Assembly (NCBI GenBank): GCA_030272585.1
Contig: BSYQ01000001.1
Span: 8,323,001-8,387,000 of the forward strand
Length of the DNA stretch: 64,000 nucleotides
From: Bryopsis sp. KO-2023
Taxonomy: Eukaryota; Chlorophyta; Ulvophyceae; Bryopsidales; Bryopsidaceae
Direction: 5' to 3'
Shown here: piece after piece, positions 19,146 through 63,001 of the stretch
How the letters are laid out: the number at the start of each line of letters is the position of its first letter
Numbering within the stretch: position 1 is the first letter of the stretch
Notes under the pieces: model-generated
Databases searched by the model: none
The model's input: only the letters and a program-made list of their open reading frames with translations
Told to the model about the DNA's origin: nothing
Position numbers and translations under genes: made by a program

Positions 19146-19694
19146 CTATCCTTTCCTTATTTTATCCCCCAGCCACTCCATTCCTTTTCCCAGACCGTCC
19201 CCCGTCAGCGCATTACTGGCCACGATTTGCCAACCTCTGTCTTTGATCTCATCCAAATTCAAACCCTCGGCTATCTCTACCGGAGACAGGGCAGTTGGCA
19301 AATCCTGTTTGTTCGCAAAAATTAGCAGAGGTACCTTGCCCAGTTCCTTGTGTCCAAGCATGGTATCTAATTCATCTTTAACCACCGCCAGGCGTATCTT
19401 GTCGGCACTATCCACGACGAATATCACAGCCTCAGCTTCCCTGTAATACTGCTCCCACAAGTTTCGATAACGACCAGCGCCAGACATATCGAAAACTGTG
19501 AAGTTGAGTCCGCCCTGTGAAAACTCCTCGACTGAAAAACCCACAGTCGGAGCGACCTCTGGGGATTGGTTTTTCTGCGGTTTCAACCTCTCGATGATGG
19601 TCGTCTTCCCGCTGTTGTCGAGTCCGACCAATAACATATTTACTTTCCGTCCCCCTAAGCCCAGCGCGTCTAAAAGGCGTTTTAGGAAACCCAT
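19146..19694 (-). CDS. ARL6: ARL6/BBS3, Arf-like small GTPase
   Basis: An intronless 182-residue frame, the usual Arf/Arl length. G2 follows Met. The P-loop GLDNSGKTT is at residues 24-32, switch I PTVGF at 49-53, DMSG (G3) at 69-72 with the ARL6-type continuation RYRNLWEQYY, and NKQD (G4) at 128-131. FDMSG-x-GRYRNLWE-x-YY and the IIxxLKP segment after the P-loop separate ARL6 from other Arls. In cilia, GTP-bound ARL6 recruits the BBSome coat to membranes at the ciliary base for membrane-protein traffic. It is transcribed away from DRC2 with 310 bases between start codons. All catalytic positions visible are intact. Confidence 0.95.
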   Translation of the reverse strand: MGFLKRLLDALGLGGRKVNMLLVGLDNSGKTTIIERLKPQKNQSPEVAPTVGFSVEEFSQGGLNFTVFDMSGAGRYRNLWEQYYREAEAVIFVVDSADKIRLAVVKDELDTMLGHKELGKVPLLIFANKQDLPTALSPVEIAEGLNLDEIKDRGWQIVASNALTGDGLGKGMEWLGDKIRKG

Positions 19695-20004
19695 CCCGTT
19701 GCTGATTGCTCGTAGCTAAACCGCCATCCCCTAAAGGTGCCACCTCCTTTTCGCAACAGATTCGACAAAGTCGTCGCTGGACGTCGAGCTCGACGAACAA
19801 GCCAGAAACTCTCCTCTGTGTCTATCGAGCCTCGGTCGCCTTCCTGACAGCTAGCGTTTGAAATCGCTGACAGCGTCCCCTCTGGTCCAGCGAAAGTTGG
19901 ACTACTGGTGGCGAATCATAAACACAAAACTGGTCGCTGGTTCGTTTCAATGATCGATTTGGGAGAATAGATCCAAGGTTACTGACGAATTTGGGAGAGC
20001 AAAA
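19695..20004. promoter_or_regulatory. Shared divergent promoter interval between ARL6 and DRC2
   Basis: The 310 bases separate two oppositely oriented start codons, so both promoters and 5' leaders must lie here. No TATA box or convincing RFX X-box was seen on either strand. The interval is CpG-containing and not AT-rich. Confidence 0.6.
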
Positions 20005-22538
20005 ATGGTCAAAAAAGGAAAGGGAAAGGGGGGCGGCAAGGTAGGGCAACGACTCTGCGAGCACTTCCTTTTCGAAAAGAGGATGCAGTGCACCTTGCGA
20101 GGGGCATCCCAAAGAGAAAACAGTCGCATATCCTGACGTAAAGGAAAACCTTTCGGTTGCAGACAAAGGCCAAGGATGAGACGGAAGAAGAAAGAGCCGC
20201 CAGGCTCAAAATGGAGGGCATTGCGGTAAGAGTTTGCATGCATGCATGCATGCATATTTGAGTTAGGCCCTGCTTCTCGACTGTGCAGTTTCAGAGTGGC
20301 GGAAAAGCGTCATTGTAGTTTTGCAGGCTCAAGAGCAAGCCAGGAAACAAGACGAGCAAAATCGAGTGGCACTGCGATTGAAACAGGTAACGAACGACTT
20401 TGACAATGGAGGCACACAGCAGTGAATACAATGACAAGCTTTGACAAGCTGTGTGCGATGGTGTAGATTCGCGAGCAACGATATGCCCACATCAACAACA
20501 TAAAGATCCATAACCAATGGCGGAAAATCAAGCGAATGTCGAAGGTGGAGGAACTGAAGAGGGACATCGAAATCATTGCTCAAAATCATGAGAGGGAGGT
20601 CGATCGAAAAGATGCCATCCTCCAGGTACAGACGCCTTTTGATACCTTGCACAAGCCCAGTTGGAGAAAGGGAAAACACTTTCTTCAGATATGAGGGAGC
20701 ACACGATGTAGTCAGACCTGAGAACAGAGCCATAAACTGAACTTTGTGCAAGCAGATGCTGGACCGTGATTTGGAGGATGCTGAGGAACAGTACAGTATG
20801 GCGCTCAGAGGGCATTATCAAATTGTCGACTCTTTGCAAGACTTGCAACACATGCGGATGCAAGCTCTGGATGAGGATTTCAGCAAGGATCTAGAAACAC
20901 TTGAAACACAATTTGAGACGTGAGAAGAGCCTCTGAACTGGACTTCACAATCACCACTTGTAGTCCAATTCACAACACTCATGGGTGCTATTCTGTACGG
21001 TGTTCAGGGAGAAGAACGAGATAATCAGTGTTCACAACAAACAAGTAAAAGACATGACCGACATGATGAATGCAATGGAGCAGGAATTCTCTCATGCTGA
21101 GGGGGAGGCCAGACAGGAGTTCGAATCCCAACGGGAAGAAGTTAAGAATCGGAACTCCGAAGAGTACAACGTTTTGAAGATCCAATTGGAGGGCACAATC
21201 GAAGAACTGGAGCGACATTTTGAACAAGCCCACAAAGTTTATCTCGACAGCACAGAGCATCGGACGCAGGCATTCAAGAAACTGACGAAGAATGACGCGG
21301 CGGCGGCGCGAGTCATAGAAAGACGAATGCGAAAGCTGATTCGCCTTCAGGTCGAGCTCAGGAGGCAAACTTTGGTCCGGACGGCTGAACTTAAAGTCTG
21401 TCGACTTGTCTGAGTGATTTTTTGCACTCTGGCTCAGGATGCTCTGGGTCACTGGCGAAACAAAATCGCGAGCAGCACCAATGAGTGGGAGGAACGCAAT
21501 CGAGCTCTTAGGAACGAGAAGGATATCATGACCAGACACTACCGAGCACTGAAATCATCGATGGACCACTTCCGTGCCACTCAGTCCCAAAGATTAAAAC
21601 ACCTGAGCATTTGCAGCGGGCAAGCACAGGGAGACCTGGAAACAAAACTGCAGAAGGCAACGGCGATACTGAAGCTGGCAGAAATGTGCAGAAAAATGGA
21701 GACAGAACAAGAAAAAATCCTCCCATTTTGTCCAAACTTGAGCGGAGTTTATGTGGGAGGGTCGAAAGTTGCGGTTGGGGAAGTTGAATCAGATGATGAG
21801 GAGGAAAAGAAGTCTGGAGACCCAGGCGTTCCTCCTAAGGAAGATGTTGCTGTGGACGCTTCCGCTGCTGATTCAAGCGTGAGGGGTTGGGTTCTGCTGA
21901 TTATGTTCTGTGCGTTTGAAGGTGGTGCAAAAATCTTGACATGCGTTTTGGTGTTGTTGATAGATCGAGGCGGTGGGAGGTAAACTTGCAGATAAGCCAC
22001 GGTACTCATCTGTGGGGCAAGACAAAGGCAAAAACGAAGTCGAGGAATGGGATTATCTCAACAATTTCTTCAAAAAGTTCAACAAGGTATTTATTCTACT
22101 CAGCTGTGAACATCAGAAAAGAGCACCATAGAGCCGAAATGCAAGTGTGTCGATATTGATATTGCGATGACCTGAAACCAACACCATTAGTAGTGGTATA
22201 CCAGACTGTGATCACACACATCTGTTAAAATCGAGTCTCCCTCCCGGGGGCTACGGATGTGTTGACAGTACTTGAGAATTTCGCAGGTGATGCTGGACAA
22301 GGGAGCGATTGACAAAGAGCGGGATCGACTGAAGAGAGAAAACACTGATCTTCGAGCAATCTTGAAGCAGTACTTGGACGGCATCTCCGTTAATGTGGAT
22401 GTCATGAACAACCCCTCCAACACCCTAATGGTCGTGAACCAGCGCCTCCAGTTGACCTTGGGAGAGAGAAACAAAGCCAGAGCCGAGCGGGTGGCTAGGA
22501 AACAACAGCAGCAACTGGTGGTTCAAAAAGCAAACTGA
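20005..22538 (+). CDS. DRC2: DRC2/CCDC65, nexin-dynein regulatory complex subunit
   Basis: Nine exons were placed: 20005-20040, 20163-20225, 20327-20386, 20467-20625, 20756-20919, 21008-21395, 21438-21878, 21964-22086 and 22287-22538. They sum to 1686 bases and give 561 residues with no internal stop. The protein is almost entirely coiled coil. Diagnostic segments match vertebrate and algal CCDC65: the Lys-rich start, [50 protein letters not shown], and [10 protein letters not shown] followed by VVNQRLQ. An acidic linker (ESDDEEEK) precedes the exon-8 segment. DRC2 pairs with DRC1 to form the base of the nexin link on 9+2 axonemes, which controls dynein activity, so this cell makes motile cilia. 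It is about 75 residues longer than the human protein. The exon-6 donor (AAA|GTCTGT) is the weakest join. Confidence 0.93.
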
Positions 22539-22931: not shown

Positions 22932-25228
22932 TCATGCAAAGAAATCCGAGGGAAGCTGGTATGTCAGTGCAACGTTCAGCAGCCACTCCTCATCCACCAC
23001 CTTGGCATAAGGGGGAAGATTCATCGGCTTCATGGCCCCATCACACACCACGCACACCGCACAACACCTCATCCCCACGAGCTCCGCCCCCAGTTTCTTC
23101 GCCACTTGCTCCAACCCGCTCATGTTCCCCACACTCCATCCATTTCCCCCCTTGTGCACCGCCAGCATGACTTGATCCAAAGGCTTCGATATGGATTTGG
23201 ACCGAACACATCCGGATGTCTCGCTCGCCTCGCAGTCCACTTCATATCCGTCTTCCTCGAGCCAATAGCCCTCCTCCACACAAGTTTCGATCCATTCAGG
23301 ATGCAGCAGGAAAGCTCCATCCGCAACCGCTGACGCCATCCCCAAGCTCGGCTCCTTGTCGCTCACCACCACATGAGTTTGGGCCGCGGAGGTGGCTTCT
23401 CCACAAAACTTCCCCCCCTTCAGTTGCCGTGCTGCCCTCTTAACCAGGCTGATGATCTCGCTGTCTGTTCCGATGTATCCCAGCACAATGGGGCTGCTCT
23501 CTTTCCTCCTCATGAGTAGAGGGGCTTCTCGATCTTGCACCGGAGTTCCCACAGCTTCCAAAGATTCAGAGCTGGAGGGTTCTTCGTAGGATGGGGTGTC
23601 TGGGCTTTGGGGACGATACCTCCTGACTGGAGCCTTGCCCAGAGGGTCATAAAAGGTCGGAGCAATGTTGCCAATATCTGAAGGAGACACCAGACACAAC
23701 CCACCACCATTGAGCGTCACATGGAAGACAAGACTTTCCCCAAAAAAAAAAGTTAAATTAAAAAATTAAAAAAATACGCTGAAAGTATCTTCGGAATGCT
23801 CCAGCTGGGATTCAACCTACCTGGCATGTCGCTGTCAATGATGGCCTTGTATGTGGAAGCCCACGTTTCGACATTCATTTTGAGCACCTTCCACGACACC
23901 GCTGAGACTTGGGGATTCGCATGTTTGGTGAGTTTCAGCAGCGCGTTCCCCAGCTGGTAGGCCACGGCATACTTCTCGGCGCAGGGATGGTTGATCAAGA
24001 TGTGGAGGTTTTTCAACACAGTGTGCTCGCAGCCGTCGAAATCGAATTCTCCAGACCCCACCTTGTCTAGGATTCTGGCAACCAGCTTGATCTCTCTCTT
24101 CCTCTGCAAAATTATTCACTAAGCATGTCTTGAACCCAAAACGAAATAGAAAGATTGGACAAGGGGGCAGTGGCATTTTTGCAATTTTTGACCTGTTGTC
24201 TATTTTCTGTAAAAGCTTCGAATATTGAATTCGGAACAATTATATCTTTGATCGTTCCGATTTCCGCATTATGAAGTGAACTGCAAAAGAATAGAAACAT
24301 ATTTTTGAAAGATTTTTTCAGGGGGGTTGCCACCACATCAAACACAATCTTGGGTCTGCAAAAGCATGCATTTTGCTTAAAATCCAATCGAGTTGTTGAA
24401 TAAATGCTTGGGGGGAATGGAAATTTCTTGAGCACTTTCATTTTTTTATGATTTGTTAACAATTTTTTGTATGCAATTCCAGATGATGAAAATAATAAAT
24501 TCAAATGAACAAATTCGAAAAAGTCCGGTGCTATTTGAAACTTAAAATCCAGAAAGCTAGGCAATTTCTCGTTGCCCAAACGTTTGAAATCTAGGTTTGA
24601 AATGTAAAGATTCAAGGTTATATTTTTTTTTGCCTGGTTGCTTAGTTATGATCGAATGGGTAGGCTGAGGATCCTCCAGTCTTTTGAAAAATCTAGAAAC
24701 TCCCATCCAACATTTCTCTATAAACATGAAGCACAGGATGCAGAATATCTGCAAACATGCATTCAATTGTCTATGCAATATTTTCTGTAAAATGCATCCA
24801 AAACCGCACTGCCCACCAGTCTAGCCGGTTCCCTCTGTTCCTTCAGACGTTTGCTGCGCTCTTCCTGGGTAGGGTACTTATCCCTGGCCCTCAGCCGACG
24901 CTTGGCTGCAAAAACGATACAATAACACTTTGACGCTCGACGGCCTTTATCCAAACAGGTCTCCACAAGCATCCATCACCACGATTCTCTGGAACGAACC
25001 AAACACACGCGCACTATTCTTTTCCTCACTGCAATCTCCAACCTGGTCGACAGCCGCCCTTCAAGACTGCCATGAGTGCCTCCGCTGGGTGGGGGTTTTC
25101 TTTACAGTCGTGTTGTAAAGCTCCGTTCTCCATTCTAAAAATGCCTGGGTGGCCTGCATCGAGGATGGGTTTCAATTTGGTGGATGACAGCCCGATTTCC
25201 ACGGAGTCACCTTCAGTCGTACATAGCA
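22932..25228 (-). CDS. TFIIS-N-like and tandem BRCT domain protein
   Basis: The last exon, 22932-23677, encodes two BRCT domains: the first ends around HPEWIETCVEEGYWLEEDGYEV, the second around VVDEEWLLNVALTYQLP, each with the conserved Trp. The exon at 23821-24103 joins it in phase (DSDMP|DIGNIAP) and encodes an all-helical module, HTVLKNLHILINHP…GNALLKLTKHANPQVSAVSWKVLKMNV. Its pattern fits the TFIIS N-terminal (LW) domain of transcription elongation factors. Upstream candidate exons lie at about 24790-24907 (basic helix, EERSKRLKEQ) and about 25046-25228. The 5' end was not found. BRCT pairs bind phosphopeptides in DNA-damage signalling, and TFIIS-N domains bind transcription elongation complexes. 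A role linking repair and transcription is inference. 24120-24780 is a long AT-rich intron. Confidence 0.75.
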
Positions 25229-28505: not shown

Positions 28506-31500
28506 TCACAATATGAATCTCTCCAAAGCTTCGGCCAAACCATCTTCATCATTGGACGAAACCACAGCATCCGCTGCAGCTTTCACCTTCATGGAAAATC
28601 AAAATAAAAAAGAATAAAAAAAAATTCACTTGCTTTCACAAAGCAAAACTAAGCGAACTGCCATATGTAAACACACCAATTCACTGGTGCTTTGTCACAT
28701 GTACAAGTAATAGTCACCCTGAGTATGGAATCTATAGCTGTATTAGTCATCCTTCGCAGGGTTTTTTTAAGGAGAAGCATTATCGTTGTGTATTCCTTCA
28801 AAATTTAGAACCCCCCCTTCAATGAAAAGAATCTTAATTTTTTGTAATGTTTTTCAACGTTCACATAGTTGAAAAAACCTTGAAAGAAAGAAAGAAATCA
28901 AGAGCCATATCACAGACATGTGCATTATTTATGACTTCCCCCCCCCCCCCCCCCAAAAAAAAAAAAAAGAACCCACCTTTTCCACCCCATTTCCCATAGC
29001 GATTCCCAAACCTGCCCCCTGCACCATTTCGAAGTCATTTCCACCATCCCCCACAGCCATAACGGAATCCAACCCCACCCCAGCACTTGCAGCAAGAGTT
29101 TTCACCCCATTCCATTTGTTCACCCCTCTCGGCACCAACTCCAAATGATTCTCAACCGCAATCATGACATCGGCCCCGGTGCCCTCCACATTCCTTTCCC
29201 AATGGGGCTGAATTTCCTGCAATATCCTGGAGGGCTCCGCCATCAGCACGATTTTCTTGGGGGTGGGCCCCTGGAGGATCTGGTCAATGGTGACTTCTTT
29301 GGCGAGGGGTTCGTAGTAGCGGCTGTGCATTTCCTCCACCTCGTCGGTCATCTTGGTGGTGGCGCATTCGTCGCCCAGGAAAGCTATGCAGGAGACGTTT
29401 TGCTTTTCGCAGTACTGAAACACGGAAGCCACGAAGCTGGCGGACAGATTGGGACCCATCATGGCTTTCCCCCGCCAATCGTGCACAGCCAGACCTTGAA
29501 GAAACACGCCCGCCCCCGAAAGAGAAACGACCAAGCCATCGCCTGCGCATTTCCCAATCCACAGCCGCCGTTTCACCCACAACTCGTTTCATAAAAAAAT
29601 CCCAAACAGCCGACAAAATCCACGAAGAATAAAAAATCATGGGTTTAAAAACTTGGGACCCACACACCTGCCAGTCCAACGTTTCCGCAAGCGGATAATG
29701 CTGCAGGCCTGGCTTTCCCTGTTGCTAGCATGACCTTGATTCCCTTCGCCAGTACGGCCCTGATTGCATCTCTGGACGAGTCCAGGATTTTGCTGCGGCT
29801 GTTCAAAAGAGTACCATCCATATCTAACGAAATCAACTGAATATCGCCCTTGTAGCGATTTAAGGAAACGACCGGCCCTGAACTCCGGTTTCGCTCTGGA
29901 TCGAATCACAAACGATGCTGATTAATAATAACTCCACATGCAGTATCGAGAGAATCTGAAAAACGTTGCATCTGTGAAAAAAAATAAAAAATAAAAGAGA
30001 GTTATCAGCACCAAAAGAATTGAATTACCTGGTGTTTCTGGTTTTACTGTGGAGTGAAGCTCGCCCCCCTTGACGGCGGCTTCGATCAATCCTTTGCCCT
30101 GCCACCCCAGACGGGACATCAGGGTTTGTTCTGCTTGAGCCATTTCTTTCCAGGCCTTGGGACTCCGGTCGTGATCGAATCCCATCAAATGCAACAGCCC
30201 ATGTATGAGCAAGACGCGGCATTCGTCAAGCAGTTCCAACCTGCAATGAACTGAACAAGAAGTCAATACTTATTTCTGAACGAAGAAAACCTCCCACCCC
30301 CCACCTTTTTTTCGTTCTTTTTTTTTGTGTTTGTTAGAAGGGGGGGAGGGATGTTGATTTTGCCAGTTGTGCATCGGCAGCAGCTTTCTCAAACTGGATA
30401 CATTGATCAACTTGTTAAGGGCCTGGTCGTTGCTGATTGATGAGACGAAGTAACCTGATCCGCATGTGAATAGAAATCGGAAATCGGTTGAGCAAACTTG
30501 GAGAAAGAAAGGGAAAATTTCGCTTACCGACGCTTCTCCGCTTGTCGACTGGCAGTGTCAAGAGATATCACCAAATCACCCAGCGCCAAAAGAGGTAAAT
30601 CCTTCAAACCACCAACGGGAAAAAGTCTCTCACTCAAAATCCCAATAACAACAAGCTTTATCGTCAATGGCAGTTTTCCTGATGCTCTTTCTTTCTTTCT
30701 TTCTTTCTTTTTTAATGTGGGATGGCATTAATTAAAAAAGTGCAGTGAGCTAGCAGAAGTGCAACGACTGTGACTGAAATGCCCAAAAAAAATTCAGACG
30801 GGTGTATTTGTGCATTCCTCCTCCTTTGACATTTCAAGATCTGGAGAAAGCAGCTTTCAAAAAAAAAACGGCAAACAATTGGGATTCAATTTTAACTCCT
30901 TGGCATTATTTTTATTATTTTTTTATTTTTTTACCTCTTCTTCCTCCCCGTCATCCAATGGAAAGGAAAGCACGTCGGTTGGAGAATTGATGCCTCTCCA
31001 TTCTTTGTTCAAGTCTGTCATATGAGCATCGTCACATAACACAATGGACAGCTCCACCATTTCTACAAAAGAATAAATATACCTGTATTTTCAAACATTC
31101 AAATTCAGCCAATAGATTTCAAGGCGGCGCCTTTCACATTGTGGATGAGTTTTGGATGGGTGTAAAAAGAAAAACCCCCATGAAGGAAATTAAACTGGTG
31201 GATATGCAAGAAGCCCCTGGCCCGATGAGCGCCTCCCACCTTTGTTTGTGGGGTTCTCCTGTGAGGAGCTACGTAGCTCAAGTGCTCGCTTTAGAGCCTC
31301 CAGCGCATCCTCTTGAAGCGTTCTGGCGAGGTCTCCCACGATGGAGCTGAACACAAAAACGAAAACGACATTAAACGACGCTGCTTTCGACACGACGGAT
31401 TGGTTTTTCGTTACACGGTCATACGAGACATCAAGAAGCAAACAGAATCGATGGATGCGAAGCGCGTACCTCTGACCGGCGAGGGGCCGACCTTCGACCA

Positions 31501-31885
31501 GCACGTCGACTTCAAGCTCGGCCCCGTGTCGATCAACAGCCGCACACGAACATAGCAAGCGGAGCCCAGACTTGCGTCGGGCGTCGGAGTTTATGGAGCA
31601 AGGTGGAGGAAGACGTGCCCTCGTTTGAGCGACGGCCTGCGTCCTGCCTTGATTTCCCCTGGAAACACTTCGTTCGCGTTCGCCAAGGAGGGGTATCAGC
31701 CACTTGGGGACTTGGCTGAAAGGATCCCCAACGCAGCGCGATAGAGACGCGTAGCGCGAAAACGGCAGGAGCGCGTGAGACGTCATGGAAAGAGGGAAAG
31801 GAAGGTAGCACAATACACGGCCAATTTGTATTTGTTTTCCCCCAAAAAACGAAGGCACTGATGCTGACGCCGGCACCGTCAGCAT
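28506..31885 (-). CDS. Plastid-type YbeY endoribonuclease fused to a Cof-type HAD hydrolase
   Basis: Eight exons right to left: 31470-31885, 31240-31346, 30935-31062, 30528-30601, 30029-30240, 29668-29895, 28977-29542 and 28506-28586. They sum to 1812 bases, 603 residues, all phases agreeing. An alternative start at 31786 would give 570. The Ser/Arg-rich N-terminus suggests an organelle transit peptide. YbeY follows: [44 protein letters not shown] and the zinc site [11 protein letters not shown]. The HAD domain has DMDGTLLNS (motif I), [10 protein letters not shown] (II), a Lys-containing region near PKKIVLMAE and GDGGNDFEM (IV). Land plants encode the same order in one chloroplast protein (Arabidopsis At2g25870), where YbeY acts in plastid rRNA processing. 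The HAD substrate is unknown. No defects were seen. Confidence 0.93.
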
Positions 31886-33289
31886 CCTGTTCTGTGGTAG
31901 AGATGAAAAAGAACCAAAACCCTGAAATGGTGACTAAGTTTTCCCAGCAGCTTCTCGCTGTGAGCAATTCGACACATATCCAGAGAAAAATTAACTCTGG
32001 GTGCGGCGACCCAGCCTGATGGTCCAAAGTGATGTCGCTCAAAGAAATAACCTCCATTGCGATCGCATTCCAGATATTTATGCACCCGTCAATCACTGGG
32101 GGCACACAGCCCAGAAGCTCCACGCACCCTCAATTGCCCTCTCACCGATCTGTGTCGAAAGTAGCGGGTGCTTTCCCGTTATGGAACGTGAATCCACTAG
32201 GGTGACTGTTGTTTGATGGCTCTGCGAAACGATGAGCTGATACTTTGGCTGCTGGCTTGGAGCAGCTGTTTATTGTGCCTGAGGTTTTCTCAAAAACAGA
32301 GGTGGTGGAGGGGATGGGGAGTTCTTTAGTGATGATCGACACCAAATAGATAAATCAATTGGTGGGTGCAAATGTATATCTGCATCTGTAAAAAACAGGG
32401 CCTGGGTTTGCCTACCCTGTGCAATCGAACTACCGACTCTATAGCATTCCTTTCACCAAAACGTTTTTGGCAGAATTCATCAAACAACGAATCACCCATG
32501 AATCCATATTTGTGCTTGCTGTGGTAGCCCCTCCTCGTTCGGAGTGAAATTGTTCGAGCTCCAAAATTGTGGATATTTCGCTCGCACCCACGACTCGCCA
32601 GTACTGGATATCATTTTTCCAGTTTCCAAGGCCGTTGCTTCTTTGTGCATTAAAAAAAGAAACGCTCCCGACGTGCCCACACACGCCGCCAAAACATTTT
32701 GAGAGTCCCTTTCAGCTCGAAACGCAGGCGTGACGCTCAGATAGGGCTGACGCCGCCTTCGTGCGAATTGAAAAACGTTGCTTCACGACGCGCGCATGCC
32801 GAAACAGCCTTGCCCAACCTCTCCCATTTGAAACCCAACAGATTGATGGCCTCTCGGTCCCTTCGTTCGAAGTCAGTCTAATTACGAATGCAAGGGCGTT
32901 CCTCGCTGGATGGTTCCGATCCGATCGCTGCAACGACAAATTTCGCGCTCGAAACCTTTTTTTTTTGCACGGGGCTGAAATTAAAAGGAAAAACGCTGTC
33001 GAGGAGAGCATACGCTATACGCCCCTCGCATACGATTGGGGTGGTGGGTGCCGCGGTTAGGGCAGCCCGTTGCTCGGCGTGTCCTATGCCGCAATTGGAC
33101 ATTTTGACAAGGGGCGAGGTATGCTGACGTCACGATACCAAGTGTGCAATCGTGGTGCGGTGGCCCTATATGCCAATCTCGGTTTGCGCACACCATTCTG
33201 CGTGCACAACCTGACCCAGAGCACTGTATCGGTTCCCCTGGCAGCGCCCGTCAACAATCACATCGACGCCTTACACAAAAAAAGGGGAT
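31886..33289. other. Intergenic interval with unassigned minus-strand open frames
   Basis: Between the two divergent genes lies about 1.4 kb. Minus-strand segments at 31880-32090 (…GYFFERHHFGPSGWVAAPRVN…) and 32400-32692 (possible start MAACVGTSGAF; end VVRLHR|GTAGGC) have coding-like texture and could form a small gene, but they fall in different frames and no family was recognised. 32700-33289 is CpG-rich and probably contains the promoter of the agenet-HMG gene. Confidence 0.35.
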
Positions 33290-36200
33290 ATGGCGAGGAC
33301 TAAGCCCAGTACCGGGATGACCACCCGACGGTCCGCTCAGCACCACACGAGAGCGTTCGCTGCTTCTGTCACCCCCACGCCTGGCTCCCAACCAGCCCGA
33401 GCCAAGCAGTCCAGTACTACTTCGGGGGCGTCAAAACCTGCCCCGAAAAAGCGACCCTCCACACAGAAGGCTTCCCAACCGCGCCGAACGACGACGTGGA
33501 AAAAGGTCAGTGTCTCACCCCTCGTTTCGATGAAAGCGGTCTTTTCATGACTCGATCTCTGCCTCGATCGCAGGATTGGCTAATCTGGTGGTTCGGTGAC
33601 GCCAGGTGCGAGTGTGGTGGCCTCCGACGAAAGACAAACGCAAGACTGATTTCGGAGGTGCCTATTGGCCCGCGAAGGTAACGGAACAAAGCGAGGGAGG
33701 GTTTCACGTGGAGTATGACAACGGCGACACTGAGGTGGTGGATGCGGAGAACGTGTCCCCAGCCTCTGTGCCGGTCGACTTCGGCGAAGAAAGCGTGCGT
33801 CTCCAGGTATGCAATCGTTGTCGGAAATGCTCTCGACGAACGTTACCAGGGCGCATTTTTCGGGCTGTTTTCATCGGCACGTCCGAATGTTTGTTGGACG
33901 TTTCTGTCCGGTCGTCGTTTGCGAGTGACATCTCGGTGTCGACTCGCGCAGGTCGGAGAGTATTGCGAGGTTTTCAATGACAGCAAAACGGACCCAGCTG
34001 CTTGGCTCGCGAGGGTGCAGAAGGTTGGGCGCGGGAGGTATACGGTACGACTTCCCCGCGAGTTTCGCAGATTGTTTCCAAGAGTGTGCATGATAGGGGT
34101 GATGGATCTCGACAGATTGGGGGCAGGGAGGACTGAGTTTTCCTTCGGGTTGCTAAAGGGGGGGGCCCCTTGTGTGTGGCTGTGTGGTTTCAGATCGAGT
34201 TCCCCTTCCACGACTCCCAGGATGAAGTCATAGAGGTGAGTTGATTGCAAAACGGTGGGAGGCGTCGCAGTGATTCTTCAATCTATCAGATCCGTCGACG
34301 CTCGATCATTCTGATGTGCTTTCGTTGCGCGATTTTGTGATTCGGATCTGTGGGTGCGACCACAGGAAGAGAGGATACGACGAGCGAGGGTCTACGATGA
34401 AGAAACCAGGGCCTGGAAGCTGATCAGCCCTGCACAAGAATGGGAAGAGGGGGAGGTGAGACTGGCACCCCTACCGAATCTGGCGATTGATCCGATGAAC
34501 ATCTGAGGACCATTTGATGTGTTCAAATCAAATCATCTCGATGAAAACCGACCATTGCGACTTTCTCCAAGCCCATACTTTGATCCTGAATGGAATACAT
34601 AGGTGCATGGATGCATGCTGACCCAAGGATGCATCTGAATCGCAGGTGACGTCGCCCCTGGAGCTGGAGCTCCTGACACACATGAGCGAGCTGAATGAAG
34701 CGATCAAGAAAAAGAAGCCGGTAAATAAGAGAAGACTAGTTCACCTGAGTTGCACCCAAGATCATCTTGCGATCGAATGATTGCATCAAATGATTGAAGG
34801 CAATCATCTCATTTGGATGGACATGCATGTAAATCATAATCCTATCATCGATGCTCATGAAAATGATTCGTTTTGGACAGGCCGCACAGAAGCCGAAACC
34901 AAAGCCCAAGGCTGCTCGCAAGAGTGCCACTCCTTGGCCTGCCCCCAAACGAGCTGCAGCAGAAAAGAGCGATAAAGATCAGATCGAGAAGAAGAGAAAG
35001 GTCGAGAAGGTGCTGCAAAAGCATCGGACTGATTTCTTCCCAAATTCCAAACCCTAAACACCTAACCACAACAAAATTCATCATCCCCATTTCGCGTTTT
35101 GGACCGCTTCACATCGTTAAAAAGAAACTCCTTTTCTCGACCCTGTGCGGTGGGGGTGCTCAGAGTCCAAAAAATTTGAAACTGGATAAAATAAGATTGT
35201 GACTTTATGAAAACTCGTTCAGGGTAATGGACTTAGCTGTATCTCCTGGTTTGATGTGGTTCAGTCTACTGCACTGGCTTTGGCCCCTTCGCCACCTCCG
35301 ATTTCTCCACCTCCTCAGGTGCCCGTTGCTGGCTTGGAAGGGATCGTCACGAATTCCCAAGGACAGGTTCAAATTCCCCCAGGGCTGCAACTCCAGCCAA
35401 ACCTGCTCTTGATGCACCAATTGGGCATGATGATGCCAAATCTCCCAGGTGTGTAGCCCAGACATTACCAGTGCCAAATTATTTTTATTCTTCCAGTTTT
35501 TGTTCATGGGGGACGGGTGGGAGGTTTTGTTTTGTTTTGTTTTTTTGGGGGGGGGGTTCAACCAGGTGCAGCCATGGCACCACAAACTGACTTTGGAGAG
35601 GTCTCCTCATCGCTTCTCCAGAAAGCATGGTTTAGGATTGAACCTTGCCCCTTGTTTATACAAGCTTATGTACTGGTTTTTACACATTCCTGACATTCTT
35701 TGATTTTCAGATGCTGGTGCTCCACCTGGTTTGGCACCGAAGCCCAAGAGGAAGAAAGATATGAATGCTCCCAAGAAGGGTAAGACAGCATATGTTGTTT
35801 TCATGGAGAAGCATCGACCGCTGATCAAGCAGAACGAGCCGGACGTCCTGCCCCAAAACATCATGAGCAGGATCGGCGAGCTCTGGTCAAATGTTTCGCC
35901 AGAGGAAAGGGAGGAGTGCGAAAAAGCTGCGGAGCAAGACCGTGAACGCTACAACAAAGAGATGGAATCCTATGTGCCTCCACCAGAGGACGAGCTCACC
36001 GAAAAACCCACCAAGCGGAGAAGGAGAGTCGACACTGGGCATCCGAAGAAGCCTCTGAGTGCATACTTGCTGTTTTCGAAGGAATTCAGGGCATCCCTGA
36101 AATCGGTGCCGTTTTCAGAAGCGACCAAGACGACTGCGAAGGCTTGGAAAGAGCTGAAACCAGAGGAATTGAAAAAGTGGGATGAAATTGCCGCGATCGA

Positions 36201-37174
36201 GAAATCCAAGTATGACAAAGAAAAGGAAGAATTTGATGCAAAAGTTGCACAGAGACAGAAAGAACAGCAACAGCAGCACCAGGCAGCGGTAGGTGTAGAT
36301 TTCTCAACAAAAAAAGAAACAATCAATCCAATGGACAGAAACTCCCCACTTTTTCCCCCCCTCATTTTTTCTTCTTTCTTTTTGAGGCATAATTTTCTTT
36401 TTCGGATGGAGATCCGAGTATGAAGAGAATACCAAAATCCCTTTTCGATTTTCAACGATTGTCAAGAAACTGTTCAATACCCTCTCATCTAGACTGCGAT
36501 TTGAAGGAAAAGCAGCGCAATGGATCCACCAACACTCATCTGCAAGATTTGTTTTGGCAATTTTTCCACAAGTACGCTTTTTCATTTTGGATTTTCTCTC
36601 TGATTCCCTTTTTTTTTCTCTCTCTTCCCTGTTCTTCGAACAAAAGTTGTTACAGAGCTTGTCAGCCCTGACCTCATCATCGCTGCCTTTTGCTCTGGGC
36701 TCCGGCTCCCCCGGAGGGGCAGCCCAAGTCCCCCTTCTCAACACCACCATCAGAGACACTCTCAGCCGGCTGGACCTGGTCAAAACCAGACAGACCATCC
36801 TTCGAACCTTCACCCAGGAAGCCTTCTATTTGTTGTGCGATGTCTGGCGTGAGGGGTCCCTGGTGGTGGGGGATGCTATCAGAGCTTACCACGCGCACAT
36901 CGCCGGGAGGGAGAGGCGCCCCGACTGGAGGGGCTTCTTTGTGAGCGTGTTTGGAGTCGAAAAGATGACCTCGCTGCTGAAACCAGAGAAATCTGAGAAA
37001 CCCACCCCTGCTGCTTCCGAAATCGAAGAGGGGTCTAAAGACGAGGGCAAAGAGGGGGGAGCCGACAAGCCAGTTGCGGAAGTCAAAGAGCCAGCGGGTG
37101 AAAAAGAAGAAGAGGCCGAAAAAGTAAAAGAACAGGAGGTCCAACCCGAACCCGAAAAAACCAAAAAGTCTTAG
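33290..37174 (+). CDS. Chromatin protein: tandem FMRP-type agenet/Tudor plus two HMG boxes
   Basis: Ten exons: 33290-33505, 33606-33806, 33952-34044, 34194-34235, 34366-34455, 34646-34720, 34881-35000, 35265-35448, 35711-36288 and 36656-37174. They total 2118 bases, 705 residues, phases consistent. Residues 1-72 are basic and Ser/Thr/Pro-rich. Residues about 73-200 hold two agenet/Tudor modules; the second (VGEYCEVFNDSKTDPAAWLARV … EERIRRARV) closely follows the FMRP/FXR agenet pattern. A Lys-rich linker and a Pro/Gln/Leu-rich stretch lead to HMG box 1 (about 360-430, APKKGKTAYVVFMEKHR) and box 2 (about 450-520, HPKKPLSAYLLFSKEFR). A C-terminal helical region and an acidic Glu/Lys tail close it. 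Agenets read methylated lysines and HMG boxes bend DNA, so a nuclear chromatin role is likely. The exon-7 donor is weak and could be nine bases further. Confidence 0.88.
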
Positions 37175-38221
37175 GCGTCAGGATAGGGATTGGGAAAAAA
37201 AAAGAAAAAAGCAAAGGAAAGGAAAGAAAAAATATTGTGGGGAGAGAGAGAGACAGAGAGGGGGGGGGGGTGAGATGTGTATTTTTGTTTGTATTTCCTG
37301 AGAGATATAATACATAATATTGTGGGAGGGGGGCTGCAGGGGAACCAAAAAAAAAAAGGGGAAAAAAAAAAAGCAGGGTTAGGGTGTGGGGATGTATAAA
37401 TTGTTATCGATTAGAGTACAAGATAACTTATTTTTCAATGGAAGGGATTTGTGGGGGGAAGATTGCAGGTGATGAGACGCATGTGCTATTCTTAGTAAAA
37501 GTAGGGTGGGAAAAAAAAAAGAGGAGTCTCTGTTCAGTGTAAACAGTTGCACCAAAGGGGTCTTCTCTTCAGCATTTTTCTTTGGTATTCACGTATTTCA
37601 CTTTGTTGTGTTGTCCATGGGCTGCTGTAATTCATTCGAGACCTGCGTAGAGCGATTTTTCCATCAAATAAATGAGCGAGGAAGCAGAGACACCAATCCT
37701 GGCTCCAAAAACAATGAACTGCTGCCCAACCCGGCCCTCCATTGGCTTTTTTTTATGCTGGGACAGATGCGATGCTTCTGCAGAGCCATATGAAGATCAG
37801 CCAGCTTTGATTATTGAACAGAACCCAGCAGCATGTCTATTCTTTTCCACTTGAAAAAGAAAAAGAATAGGAAAAAAATCCTCCAGTTTTGTTGCCCTTC
37901 TCTTTCTTGCCACTTTTGCTTCTTTCCATTTCGTCTGCACTTTTCCGGTGTTTGATTTCCGATCTGCCTGACTTTCTGGAATCGTCACACCCACAGCAGG
38001 CCTTCAATTTCTCCTGAATGAGTGCTAAAATCTCCAGCCTTGTACCTACATCCTTTTTCAGTAATAGATAATACATTTATTTTTCAACGTTTTATTTATT
38101 TGCTACCCAACCTACCCACACATATAGCACCTCCATCATTTTCTTCGCCTTTTTGTAAGGGCTTTTTTAGGGACCATCACATGTTGAAAAGACCACAACC
38201 AAGAAAACCAAGTAAAAAACA
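37175..38221. other. 3' flank, G-rich low complexity, no firm gene
   Basis: 37190-37370 contains A and G runs (a GGGGGGGGGG run at 37261-37270). A minus-strand frame at 37837-38076 (MYYLLLKKDVGTRLEILALIQEKLKACCGCDD…) is rich in Lys/Glu/Ser and could be a small gene or terminal exon. Nothing else supports it. Confidence 0.35.
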
Positions 38222-55977: not shown

Positions 55978-57489
55978 ATGTCTCCATCTGGATCCACCGT
56001 CGTCGTTCTCTTTGGCTTGCTCGCGGCCTACTGCGATGCCGCGACCATGCGTGGTATGGAGTAGACACGAAGCCGTTCCAACTGCTTTGCTTTCTGCTGA
56101 ATTTTAAGGGGTCTGTTTGCTGATCGATCGTGATTTTCGTTCATCCAGGTGGCGCGATCAGGACATTGCAGGCTAAGGTTCGATTTGCGTTTCGCGTTTG
56201 TTGATTGCATGAGTTTTCTTTTTAATGTTTGCTGCGCGGCATGCTTGCTATGGTTTTCTGAGCTTGTGGTGACTCTGTCTTTCTGCAGAGCGATGTTCCT
56301 TGTTCGCAAGCTGTGCGCTACAAGGTCGTGAACGACTGCCAATGGAATGCCGAGCGACAACCAACCGATTATCCCTCCAACGCTCACTGGAGCCCATTGT
56401 GTGGAACAACGCATGATAGCGAGTAAGCACCCGCTGCGGTCAGAGTCCCCCCCCCTCTTCTTGTTTCATATTGAATCTGTTGAATTTCGTGCCTTATGAA
56501 TCGATCGCGCTGAGCACTCTTCTGTTCGCAGGGCGTCGTTGTACACTCTTGGCGGCACTGCCACTGACGGTGTCAAGCTCGTTGCAGAGACGGGCGACTG
56601 CTCTATCCTCGAGGTGAGTCCTGAATCATGATCTGAGGAATATTCTCTGCGGGGCTCTGTTCAAGTGATTCAAGCCACGTGTTGAAACTGCGCAGGAAGA
56701 GGTTGCATTCTGTTCCGAGGGCGGCAACTGTGGAGCGTTTTTGAAGTTCCCATGCGACCCCTTCTCGGGAACGTGCATTTCTGAAGGAATGGTCGATGTG
56801 AGCGAAGCCATGCCCTACTTGTCCATGATCTCGATGGTTGCACCTTCTCCTGACTGGTAGGGATTTCTGATTTCTGTTTTGATGCGACTGGGAGCATCTT
56901 TGGCTCGGTCATTGCGAAAGGGATGCCATGTGTGTTTTTTGTGGCGTTGTAGGATCGTTGGTGTGGATTCCTTTGGGCTGTGCAAAGATGGAGTCTGGGT
57001 GGCCGAATATGAGAAAGATCTCTTCCCCCTCGATGCGGGAACGGATGGTGGTGAAACTTTTGCTTCGGATGATGTTCCTCTCGCAGAACGTGTCCCTATC
57101 GTGATGTGAGTTTCGTTTACATATGTTTCTGGATACCCCAAGCGCCGCTTTAGACAAATTCCTTGATTTGAGATCATGGGCTGTTTTATGTGACAGGCTG
57201 GTTGCTGAGGAAGAGTCAAACGAATTCTACAATCCTATGTCGTAAGTATAACAGAGAGGAAGAGAGAGAGAGAGAGAGTTGTACTTTATCTTTTGTGCAT
57301 TTCTTGAGAGAGTTGTACTTTATCTTTTGTGCATTTCTTGTCCTCTTGGTTGCCACTTGTGATTTCATCAAAATTCCTTTTGATTCTTCCATTTTGTTCT
57401 ATTCTAAAACATCTGATGAGATATTATTTTTGTGCAGGAACATGATCTATCCCCTGTGCAAGATCTCCATGACCCTTCAGACTAGTTAG
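55978..57489 (+). CDS. Secreted Spondin_N-domain protein
   Basis: Eight exons: 55978-56053, 56149-56177, 56289-56422, 56532-56613, 56696-56856, 56953-57105, 57197-57241 and 57438-57489. They total 732 bases, 243 residues, phases all consistent. Residues 1-22 are a signal peptide (STVVVLFGLLAAYCDA). The rest is one Spondin_N domain: VRYKVVNDCQWNAERQP, YPSNAHWSPLCGTTHDSE, ASLYTLGGTATDGVKLVAETG, PYLSMISMVAPSPDWIVGVD and DLFPLDAGTDGG. These are the conserved N/HWSP, AE-x-G, MVAPSPDW and DAGTD blocks of F-spondin and related proteins. In animals this domain sits in extracellular-matrix adhesion proteins; here it stands alone without thrombospondin repeats. Extra Cys residues suggest disulfides. 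No defects. Confidence 0.93.
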
Positions 57490-60489: not shown

Positions 60490-61030
60490 CCTTGGAATCT
60501 TATTAAATGATGCAGAGTCTCTGTATCATCGTACACTTCCCCAAGAGCATCAGGGCGCCGATCACCGAAACATTTCCATGGCTGCTTTCTTGCGAAATTC
60601 GCGACGCCAGTTGTGCGCCGCCATTGTGCAGGTAAGCCCCCCCCCCACACATGAAGGAGACTGGAGCGATTGCAGAAAAAAGGAAGAAAATAGTTGGGAT
60701 GGCGGACGTTGGCCCAATACTTGGGATTTCAACAAAAAAATCCAGGGGATAGATGGCGTCAATTTGTGCCAATTTTGTGTCTGACAGAAGAAAACGAGTT
60801 TCTGTACCAGTCACCAGGGACCGACTGGAACGAAAGCTCGTTGCAGCATAAACCCCCGAACTGGGTGAAAGTGGCAAACCAGGTTTCGACGCTGAGACAA
60901 GGGCCATATGGCGTCCATAGACAAAGAGTTAATCCTTTCCCTCTGCTGCGGCTTGGGAAGTCTCAAGGGACCCACTGGATACGAAAAGGATCCCGAATGC
61001 ATTGGTGTGTGAGAAAAGATTTGTTCTCTA
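60467..61030 (+). CDS. Putative first exon(s) of a plus-strand gene
   Basis: 60467-60631 is 55 codons from an ATG to CAG|GTAAGCC (MAPLCDSTLGILLNDAES … FLRNSRRQLCAAIVQ). A second open stretch begins near 60799 and runs past 61030 (QSPGTDWNESSLQHKPPNWV…). They could be the 5' exons of Timeless just downstream, or a separate small gene; no similarity decides. Its ATG overlaps the alternative ATG of the minus-strand gene within one CATG. Confidence 0.4.
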
Positions 61031-61206
61031 CCCTTCGACGTATGTCCTGTATCGTCGAAGAGCTCGACACTCCACAAGTCCCGACTGCGCAGCCGCTTTC
61101 ACTGCCCTTTTCATTTCCTTGCGTTTCGCGGCTCGTCCTTTCACAATCGTCGTCGTTTCCGAGTCACTCAAGACACTCCTCTGGACGTCTCTGCTTCCAA
61201 TCAAAG

Positions 61207-63001
61207 CCTGTGTGTGGAGTGATCTTTGGCCTCCGAATGCTGACGTGTTTGGGTTCACGTTTCACCGAACAGAATGTTTGAAGGACCTTCAGAAGATTCT
61301 TCGGGAGGACGACCCCGACTTTCGAGAGGCGTTTTTCTTTCTGAGCGAGCTGGACGTCCCTCGACAGGACCTCGTCCCTCTGATAATCACATATTCAAAC
61401 GAGCCGGAGGTCGTCTACAACGCTCGTAAGCACACTCAACTTTCGCCGTGCAAGGAAACTCCGCCCACGCAGCGAGTAGTTCAACTTCCAAATTTCGAGA
61501 ACGATTCTTCCGAAAGCGAAAGAGTGGAATCCACAATGTCGCTGATCGGCCAGGAGTGTGCAGTGATTTCAGATCTGACACTCAATGTGTGTGTGACTGA
61601 CTGCAGTGAAAGTCCTGACTTTTCTGAGCATGCCGGTTGAGCATGCTAGGTCAGACAACCATTTCAAGCAGGCAAGGAAACCACCACCTACATGATTGAA
61701 AAATATCCTTGCTGATTCTGACGGCTTTGGTTGTGTCGAGAATCGATCCAAGAAAAGACTCTGCACCTTTCCACATAAATCTGCTATCTTGATGGCACTG
61801 TTGTTTTTTCAGCTTCATAATTGTTTTTTTCTTTTTTCTTGTACAGAAATAATGAAATCAGCCTGACTCCTTTTGAATTCGTTCAATTTTATGATAGAGG
61901 AAAACTGAAAGAAAATGCAAATCACTGAAGGTGGAATTTGTTGGCAAGATTTTGATGTGCTGCGAAGAGTTTTCTTCTTTCCTTTCTTTAAATGGGCATA
62001 GGCACCATCTTTTTTTTTTCTTTATATATACTTTTTTTGGCTGACAGCGTCAGTACATCCATAATGTGAAAACAGCGATAGTGCGTGGATCTGCGCTGAG
62101 CCAACTGGTTGGGTTTTTTGCGAATCACTTGAATGACTCCAACATGCGAAGAGAGGACACCATGCGTGTGCAGCTGGTTCTCGTATTTGTCAGAAACCTG
62201 CTGTGCACAGTGGATGGTAATGAAGGTCAAATCACTCATGTAAGTCCATTTTTTTTTTTTGCCTAAATAGACTAAGTGCTTAAAATCGAAACAGCTGAGA
62301 AGAATTTGCCACAGTCAGACTCAGAAACATAGCCTTCGAATAACGTTTTTTTGTTAAATTTTTTGCAGGAGGAAATTCTGAACCAGATGATCGATGAAAG
62401 CGTGATTGAAGTGCTGATAGCCATGGGTCAAAGAATCTGCCAGGCAAAGTTCAAAAAGGATGCACCCGTGTTGCTTCAAATCTTTTGCGAAATATTTCGC
62501 TACGTAACACCAGAGGCGCTGTTGAATGCAAAACGCCAGTCAGTGCAGCCACCCAAACAACAACCCAAGGTGCAGGTCGAGTGGAAAACAGTTGCAATCG
62601 ACGATTAGAATTCCGTTTCGAGGTGCAATTTTAGCTCATTGACCCAGTTTTGCGATGGATGCAGAGTTTTCCTAACAGTTTAATGGATTGCAGCTTTGAA
62701 ATGGATGGCCTGGAAGGTAGCTGAGCGTTTTCACCCTGTTTCTCGTTTAGATGGATGGACAGGAAAGGCGGAGACTTCAAATAGCAAGCATTTCCAGAAG
62801 CCTGCGCTATGGTGGGAAGTTTGTGAACAAATACAACGATTTCAGAGGAACTGTCGTGGTCAAAGACCTCAACAAAAATGCTGGAATGAAATTCAATCAA
62901 GCTGCGACACTGGGATCAAAAACCAAGGTGTGTGTAGAGTTTTCTTTTTAACCTGGTAGAGGAAAAAAAAGCCAGAAGAAAAAAAAGGAGACAGAATTTC
63001 C

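Follow-up and report, generated by a model that had tools for sequence, protein, structure and literature searches.

A predicted chromatin protein pairing tandem Tudor/Agenet modules with two HMG boxes

A ten-exon gene was found on the forward strand at 33290-37174 of the window (the whole 64,000-nucleotide stretch of DNA analysed). It probably encodes a single nuclear chromatin protein in which a Tudor pair would dock on a methyl-lysine tail and HMG boxes would bend the adjacent DNA (rough probability 0.62). The ten-exon frame, the HMG boxes, the Tudor-class modules with aromatics at cage positions and the basic tail and linkers are seen directly in the sequence. From these we infer one transcript, methyl-lysine binding by the cages, DNA bending and a nuclear location, and it is reasonable to infer that methyl-lysine reading and DNA bending are combined in one protein.

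The coding span opens with an ATG at 33290 and closes with a stop codon at 37172-37174, both boundaries being exact, and its ten exons join into a frame of 708 amino acids with no internal stop. All nine introns are GT-AG; eight of the nine junctions are phase 0, the exception being the phase 1 junction of exon 8 with exon 9. The claim of the sequence-only reading that the ten exons keep phase was borne out. Exon 1 (33290-33505) encodes a basic Ser/Thr-rich tail with the N-terminus M-ARTK, exon 2 (33606-33806) the first Tudor/Agenet module (aa 73-125), and exons 3 (33952-34044), 4 (34194-34235) and 5 (34366-34455) each a part of the second. A Lys/Ala/Pro-rich linker follows on exons 6 (34646-34720) and 7 (34881-35009), the latter carrying the motif KAARKSA at 34908-34928, and exon 8 (35265-35448) adds a Pro-rich linker. 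Both HMG boxes lie on exon 9 (35711-36288), whilst exon 10 (36656-37174) encodes a predicted helical segment and then a Glu/Lys-rich tail. Two splice sites can be placed in more than one way. The exon 7 donor is at 35009 in the rebuilt model and was put at 35000 in the earlier reading; the frame is preserved with either, and the join of 35000 to 35265 stands as an alternative. Likewise, exon 8 may begin at 35265 or at 35319, which is in frame too.

The model was compared with the output of a small gene finder run over about 33200-37400, which took its codon weights from 860 codons in five other ORF pieces of the window and used generic splice weights. With loosened limits the best chain ran from 33290 to 37174 and reproduced nine of the ten exons with exact boundaries; exon 8 alone differed, its start being shifted to 35319. 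A stricter run, in which acceptors were filtered more tightly and introns cost more, returned six of the ten exons exactly; exon 5 was skipped and exons 8, 9 and 10 were altered, with exon 9 shortened and the start of exon 10 replaced, and the result was still one chain over both halves. Since the loosened run relaxed both limits and so admitted the model's own sites, it favours that model. The gene-finder test supports the ten exons but is not a blind test. Codon signal per codon was absent in exon 1 (-0.04) and exon 8 (-0.02) and ranged from 0.10 to 0.29 in the other eight exons.

Pfam matched HMG_box to the full-length sequence at 6.5e-27 (94.2 bits against a cut-off of 25.4) in two stretches, at aa 364-431 (35770-35973) and aa 454-520 (36040-36240), and the second box alone scored 5.8e-11 (43.1 bits). 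PDB matches of this part include HMGB1, NHP6A and SSRP1. The presence of two HMG boxes, as the sequence-only reading had it, is certain and far beyond chance, and as members of their family they would be expected to bind and bend DNA. The first 72 residues carry a net charge of +16, and the C-terminal Glu/Lys-rich tail one of -8. Between the HMG boxes and this tail, a segment of some 80 residues (about aa 560-645, 36734-36982) is predicted to be helical, with five helices in a low-confidence model; exon 10 folded alone and without an alignment gave a poor model (pLDDT 50.9), and the segment matched no Pfam family and, by sequence, no PDB entry at an E-value below 1.

By profile, the N-terminal half is predicted to hold two Tudor/Agenet modules, a class assignment that is beyond chance on the 145-aa piece spanning the pair. 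On that piece Pfam reported Agenet at 4.5e-7 (30.7 bits against a cut-off of 27) and Tudor_3 (Crb2 Tudor) at 1.3e-6 (28.6 against 25.8); on the full-length protein both fell just below their cut-offs (24.9 against 27 and 22.5 against 25.8). The proposed tandem modules were upheld on the shorter piece and not at full length. Module 1 alone matched Agenet at 4e-05 (24.5 bits against 27), and the sole match of module 2 alone was Tudor_3 at E 0.06. The small-barrel families PTM_DIR17_Tudor, Myosin_N and MBT also matched the 145-aa piece below their cut-offs, and an NCBIfam scan of the Tudor piece gave no match. When the modules were compared with each other by BLASTP, 28% identity was found over 37 residues of module 1, at an E-value (1.5e-4) that is generous because only two sequences were compared. 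The pair as a whole is acidic (net charge -13).

The single-sequence AlphaFold model of module 1 (exon 2 alone) contained three strands of at least three residues at a poor mean pLDDT of 53.5, and a PDB fold search with this poor model returned no match at 1e-3. Its best 50 rows were a mix of integrase C-terminal domains, myosin heads, PWWP, SH3 and one PHF20 Tudor, weak matches that are not Tudor-specific and would indicate a small barrel at most. In the sequence search of the 145-aa piece against the PDB, matches to designed repeat proteins, tachylectin and ADP-ribose pyrophosphatase were judged to be chance, those to the repeat proteins being sums of 4-5-bit stretches. No relatives were found for the tandem Tudor piece or the HMG piece among viral contigs, or for aa 1-536 among prokaryotic genome contigs, which says little given that the collections scanned were viral and prokaryotic.

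A closer inspection of the two modules revealed aromatic residues where a methyl-lysine cage needs them, by alignment only. Module 1 has W76/W77, F88, W93 and Y109, and the putative pocket residues of module 2 are V146, F147, W157, F173 and E181. In the alignment, which is the only basis for this correspondence, W76/F147, W93/W157 and Y109/F173 share columns with Y, W and Y of FXR2. W76 would stand where 53BP1 has its first cage Trp. The FXR1 pocket, in its module 2, is described as Y95, W97, V66 and E104 (PMC2970552, available in part). Against FXR2, module 2 here has V146, W157, F173 (Phe for Tyr) and E181 at residues of the FXR1-pocket type, a correspondence drawn from the kinds of residue aligned and not from the numbering of that paper. 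The cage of AGD2 in AGDP1 is given as Y122, W127 and F144 with E149 (PMC6208443, likewise available in part), and the spacing of F88, W93 and Y109 with D113 in module 1 is nearly the same; module 2 has no aromatic five residues before W157, where AGDP1 has one. With aromatics at cage positions in both modules, each could hold a methyl-lysine.

The sequence-only reading had called these modules FMRP-like. The resemblance stands as a distant one: FXR2 (3h8z) was the sole Tudor chain matched in the PDB by sequence, over 64 residues that take in module 2 and the inter-module linker, with identical residues in 20 of 67 columns. However, the E-value of this match (0.12) is sub-significant, the Agenet and Tudor_3 models score instead, and neither a KH nor an FXR family came up for this protein in Pfam at a max_evalue of 10, with filters that drop most matches above E 0.1. 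Membership of the FXR family was therefore rejected, and the literal reading, in which a true FMRP-family tandem Agenet was captured by an HMG protein, is most improbable. FMRP, FXR1 and FXR2 do share with this protein two N-terminal Tudor modules in tandem, and V, W and E of module 2 are of the types found in the FXR pocket; they differ in that no KH family was found here, Phe replaces Tyr, module 1 has cage-type aromatics and HMG boxes follow the Tudor pair.

Gene-finder scores did not tell whether the Tudor and HMG halves belong to one gene or to two (74.3 for one gene; 31.3 + 42.2 = 73.5 for two, a sum that includes no charge for a second promoter). The two-gene arrangement would consist of adjacent genes on the same strand, a Tudor/Agenet protein ending at a stop at 35057, which the unspliced frame of exon 7 does reach, and an HMGB-like protein with its start codon at 35412. 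Just 354 bases would then be left for the promoter of the second gene and the 3′ end of the first, and that interval contains neither AATAAA nor a CpG-rich stretch. The only forward-strand AATAAA within 33.2-38.7 kb is at 37667, 3′ of the HMG part, although this may not be the signal of this genome; TGTAA occurs at 34828, within intron 6. CpG-rich stretches lie upstream of and across exons 1-4 (32.4-34.4 kb, 11-22 CpG per 200 bp). None was found between the halves: 35.0-35.4 kb has 8 and 6 CpG per 200 bp, which is average and not depleted (the window mean is about 7), and 35.4-35.8 kb is CpG-poor (1 and 2). CpG-rich DNA may not mark 5′ ends in this genome. The HMG-only start at 35412 sits in a poor context, with T at -3 and C at +4, versus G at both positions for the start codon at 33290. 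Counted against a single gene are the tied scores, the lack of codon signal in exon 8 and the average CpG content of the gap. With neither AATAAA nor CpG-rich DNA between the halves, and with a weak start context at 35412, the evidence leans towards one gene that would yield a single transcript; two separate genes are an unlikely, if credible, arrangement.

If the halves form one protein, the tandem Tudor/Agenet modules would dock on a methylated histone tail, while the HMG boxes and basic linkers would hold and bend the neighbouring DNA. The outcome would be HMGB-like DNA architecture delivered to marked nucleosomes. In HMGB1 an acid-rich C-terminal tail tunes the HMG boxes, and the acid-rich tail here may do the same. 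Counted against this explanation are the sole and weak match of module 2 alone (Tudor_3, E 0.06), its missing aromatic five residues before W157, the poor confidence and unspecific PDB matches of the module 1 model, and the lack of relatives in the viral and prokaryotic collections, all noted above. It could also be that there is one gene but that its Tudor pair reads no methyl mark, serving instead as a protein- or nucleic-acid-binding arm on an HMGB relative. Such a role would fit the weak binding of histone peptides by FXR1 and FXR2 (about 450 micromolar or weaker; PMC2970552, in the portion available) and the binding of FUS as well by the FMRP tandem Agenet domain (PMC5430443, in the portion available), but both modules here have cage-type aromatics and a plant tandem Agenet is a specific H3K9me2 reader (PMC6208443, in the portion available), and we consider a non-reading arm rather unlikely.

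Two short stretches of the protein resemble histone H3. The N-terminus reads M-A-R-T-K, as in H3, with ARTK at aa 2-5 (33293-33304), and KAARKSA at aa 249-255 is identical to H3 residues 23-29, the H3K27 site. Across the window, 549 stop-to-stop ORFs reach 60 aa or more, most of them surely not genes, and an H3-tail match of at least five residues was found in the KAARKSA ORF alone. Shuffling gave a seven-residue H3-tail match 18 times in 100000 for the linker and 8 times in 20000 for the whole protein. Among first-order Markov sequences, such matches occurred in 284 of 40000 under a model built from the linker itself, in 55 of 40000 under one built from all basic parts and in 2 of 8000 under one built from the whole protein; these counts rose to 388, 196 and 11, respectively, when any of the four core histone tails was allowed. 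Given the composition of aa 2-72, the chance of ARTK at the start is 3.6e-4. As both motifs were chosen after the sequence was seen, none of these figures is a clean p-value, and composition makes part of the KAARKSA match cheap. Homology does not account for the resemblance to H3: with E-values allowed up to 10, neither the first 70 residues nor the Lys-rich linker hit anything in the PDB.

Short H3-like lysine motifs that enzymes and readers treat like H3 are described in non-histone chromatin proteins (PMC10611923 and PMC8319299, both available in part). Since histone mimicry is known among chromatin proteins, the idea that it operates here is not exotic. The protein might be a self-reading chromatin factor whose own ARTK and KAARKSA engage its tandem Tudor reader, although we regard this as distinctly doubtful. 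Removal of the first Met would leave an N-terminus of A-R-T-K exactly as in H3, and the protein's own H3-like stretches could fill the reader pockets, by auto-inhibition or intermolecular bridging, until nucleosomal H3 competes. Alternatively, H3K4 or H3K27 methyltransferases could write these stretches and thereby gate the DNA-bending HMG half. In AGDP1, according to the available portion of PMC6208443, A1 and K4 of H3 lie on module 1, R2 contacts both modules and the methyl-lysine sits in the module 2 cage, the two modules between them holding A1, R2, K4 and methylated K9.

The sequence-only reading had stated that HMG-box proteins usually lack Tudor readers. This needs a caveat, as the Royal-family reader PWWP occurs with HMG boxes in NSD/WHSC proteins, one from Monosiga included (PMC3457860, in the portion available). 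A fusion of reader and HMG box is thus already known, and a tandem Agenet with HMG boxes is an unusual pairing of familiar parts; no such pairing of tandem Tudor/Agenet and HMG was found in the titles and abstract openings among the literature matches listed. NSD/WHSC1 (PWWP, HMG, PHD and SET) resembles the present protein in having a Royal-family methyl-lysine reader and an HMG box in one chain, but has PWWP where a tandem Tudor is found here, and a SET methyltransferase, of which none was found here. AGDP1 is likewise a tandem Agenet protein; the aromatic spacing of module 1 is close to that of its AGD2, and its peptide-binding surface is acidic, as is the Tudor pair here. It differs in having three pairs, in the aromatic before Trp that module 2 lacks and in that HMG is named once, in a reference, within the available text of PMC6208443. 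HMGB1-type proteins share the two tandem HMG boxes and an acid-rich C-terminal tail (mixed Glu/Lys here), but not the N-terminal Tudor pair, the H3-like segments or the extra helical C-terminal segment. With the histone mimics, namely EHMT1/2 substrates, JARID2 and PALI1, the protein has in common short H3-like lysine motifs; here, unlike there, both ARTK and KAARKSA lie inside a probable reader, and those of JARID2 and PALI1 are not exact H3 copies (PMC10611923 and PMC8319299, in the portions available). A brown-algal Gypsy element is reported to encode a polyprotein that ends with a Tudor domain (PMC12477816, available in part). Nothing at 33290-37174 resembles it.

The window as a whole is eukaryotic-type DNA of 45% GC with spliced genes, and neither a tRNA (ARAGORN) nor an Rfam family at gathering score was found within it. 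The CpG-rich stretch at 32400-34400 runs from about 0.9 kb upstream of the gene to about exon 4, and a second one further upstream, at 31200-31800, may belong to another 5′ end. On the reverse strand are an Arf-family GTPase exon (19149-19715, Pfam 9.8e-56), a BRCT domain exon (22935-23765, 1.5e-4, 22.3 bits against 21.3) and a HAD-type hydrolase exon (28932-29588, Hydrolase_3, 2.5e-25). On the forward strand are fragments of Spondin_N (56861-57106, 2.7e-10) and of a Timeless protein (60933-61637, 7e-6, 26 bits against 25), and charged, probably coiled-coil ORFs at 20964-22535. The last of these ORFs has a weak match, at 6e-5 and short of the cut-off, to the sperm-tail NYD-SP28 C-terminal family, a hint that the organism may be flagellated.

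The Tudor-HMG fusion may be common in this organism's group. If this is indeed one protein, it would couple the reading of histone marks directly to DNA bending of the HMGB type, with no enzyme in between. If its H3-like segments are functional, it would offer a simple system in which to test how histone mimicry switches a reader.
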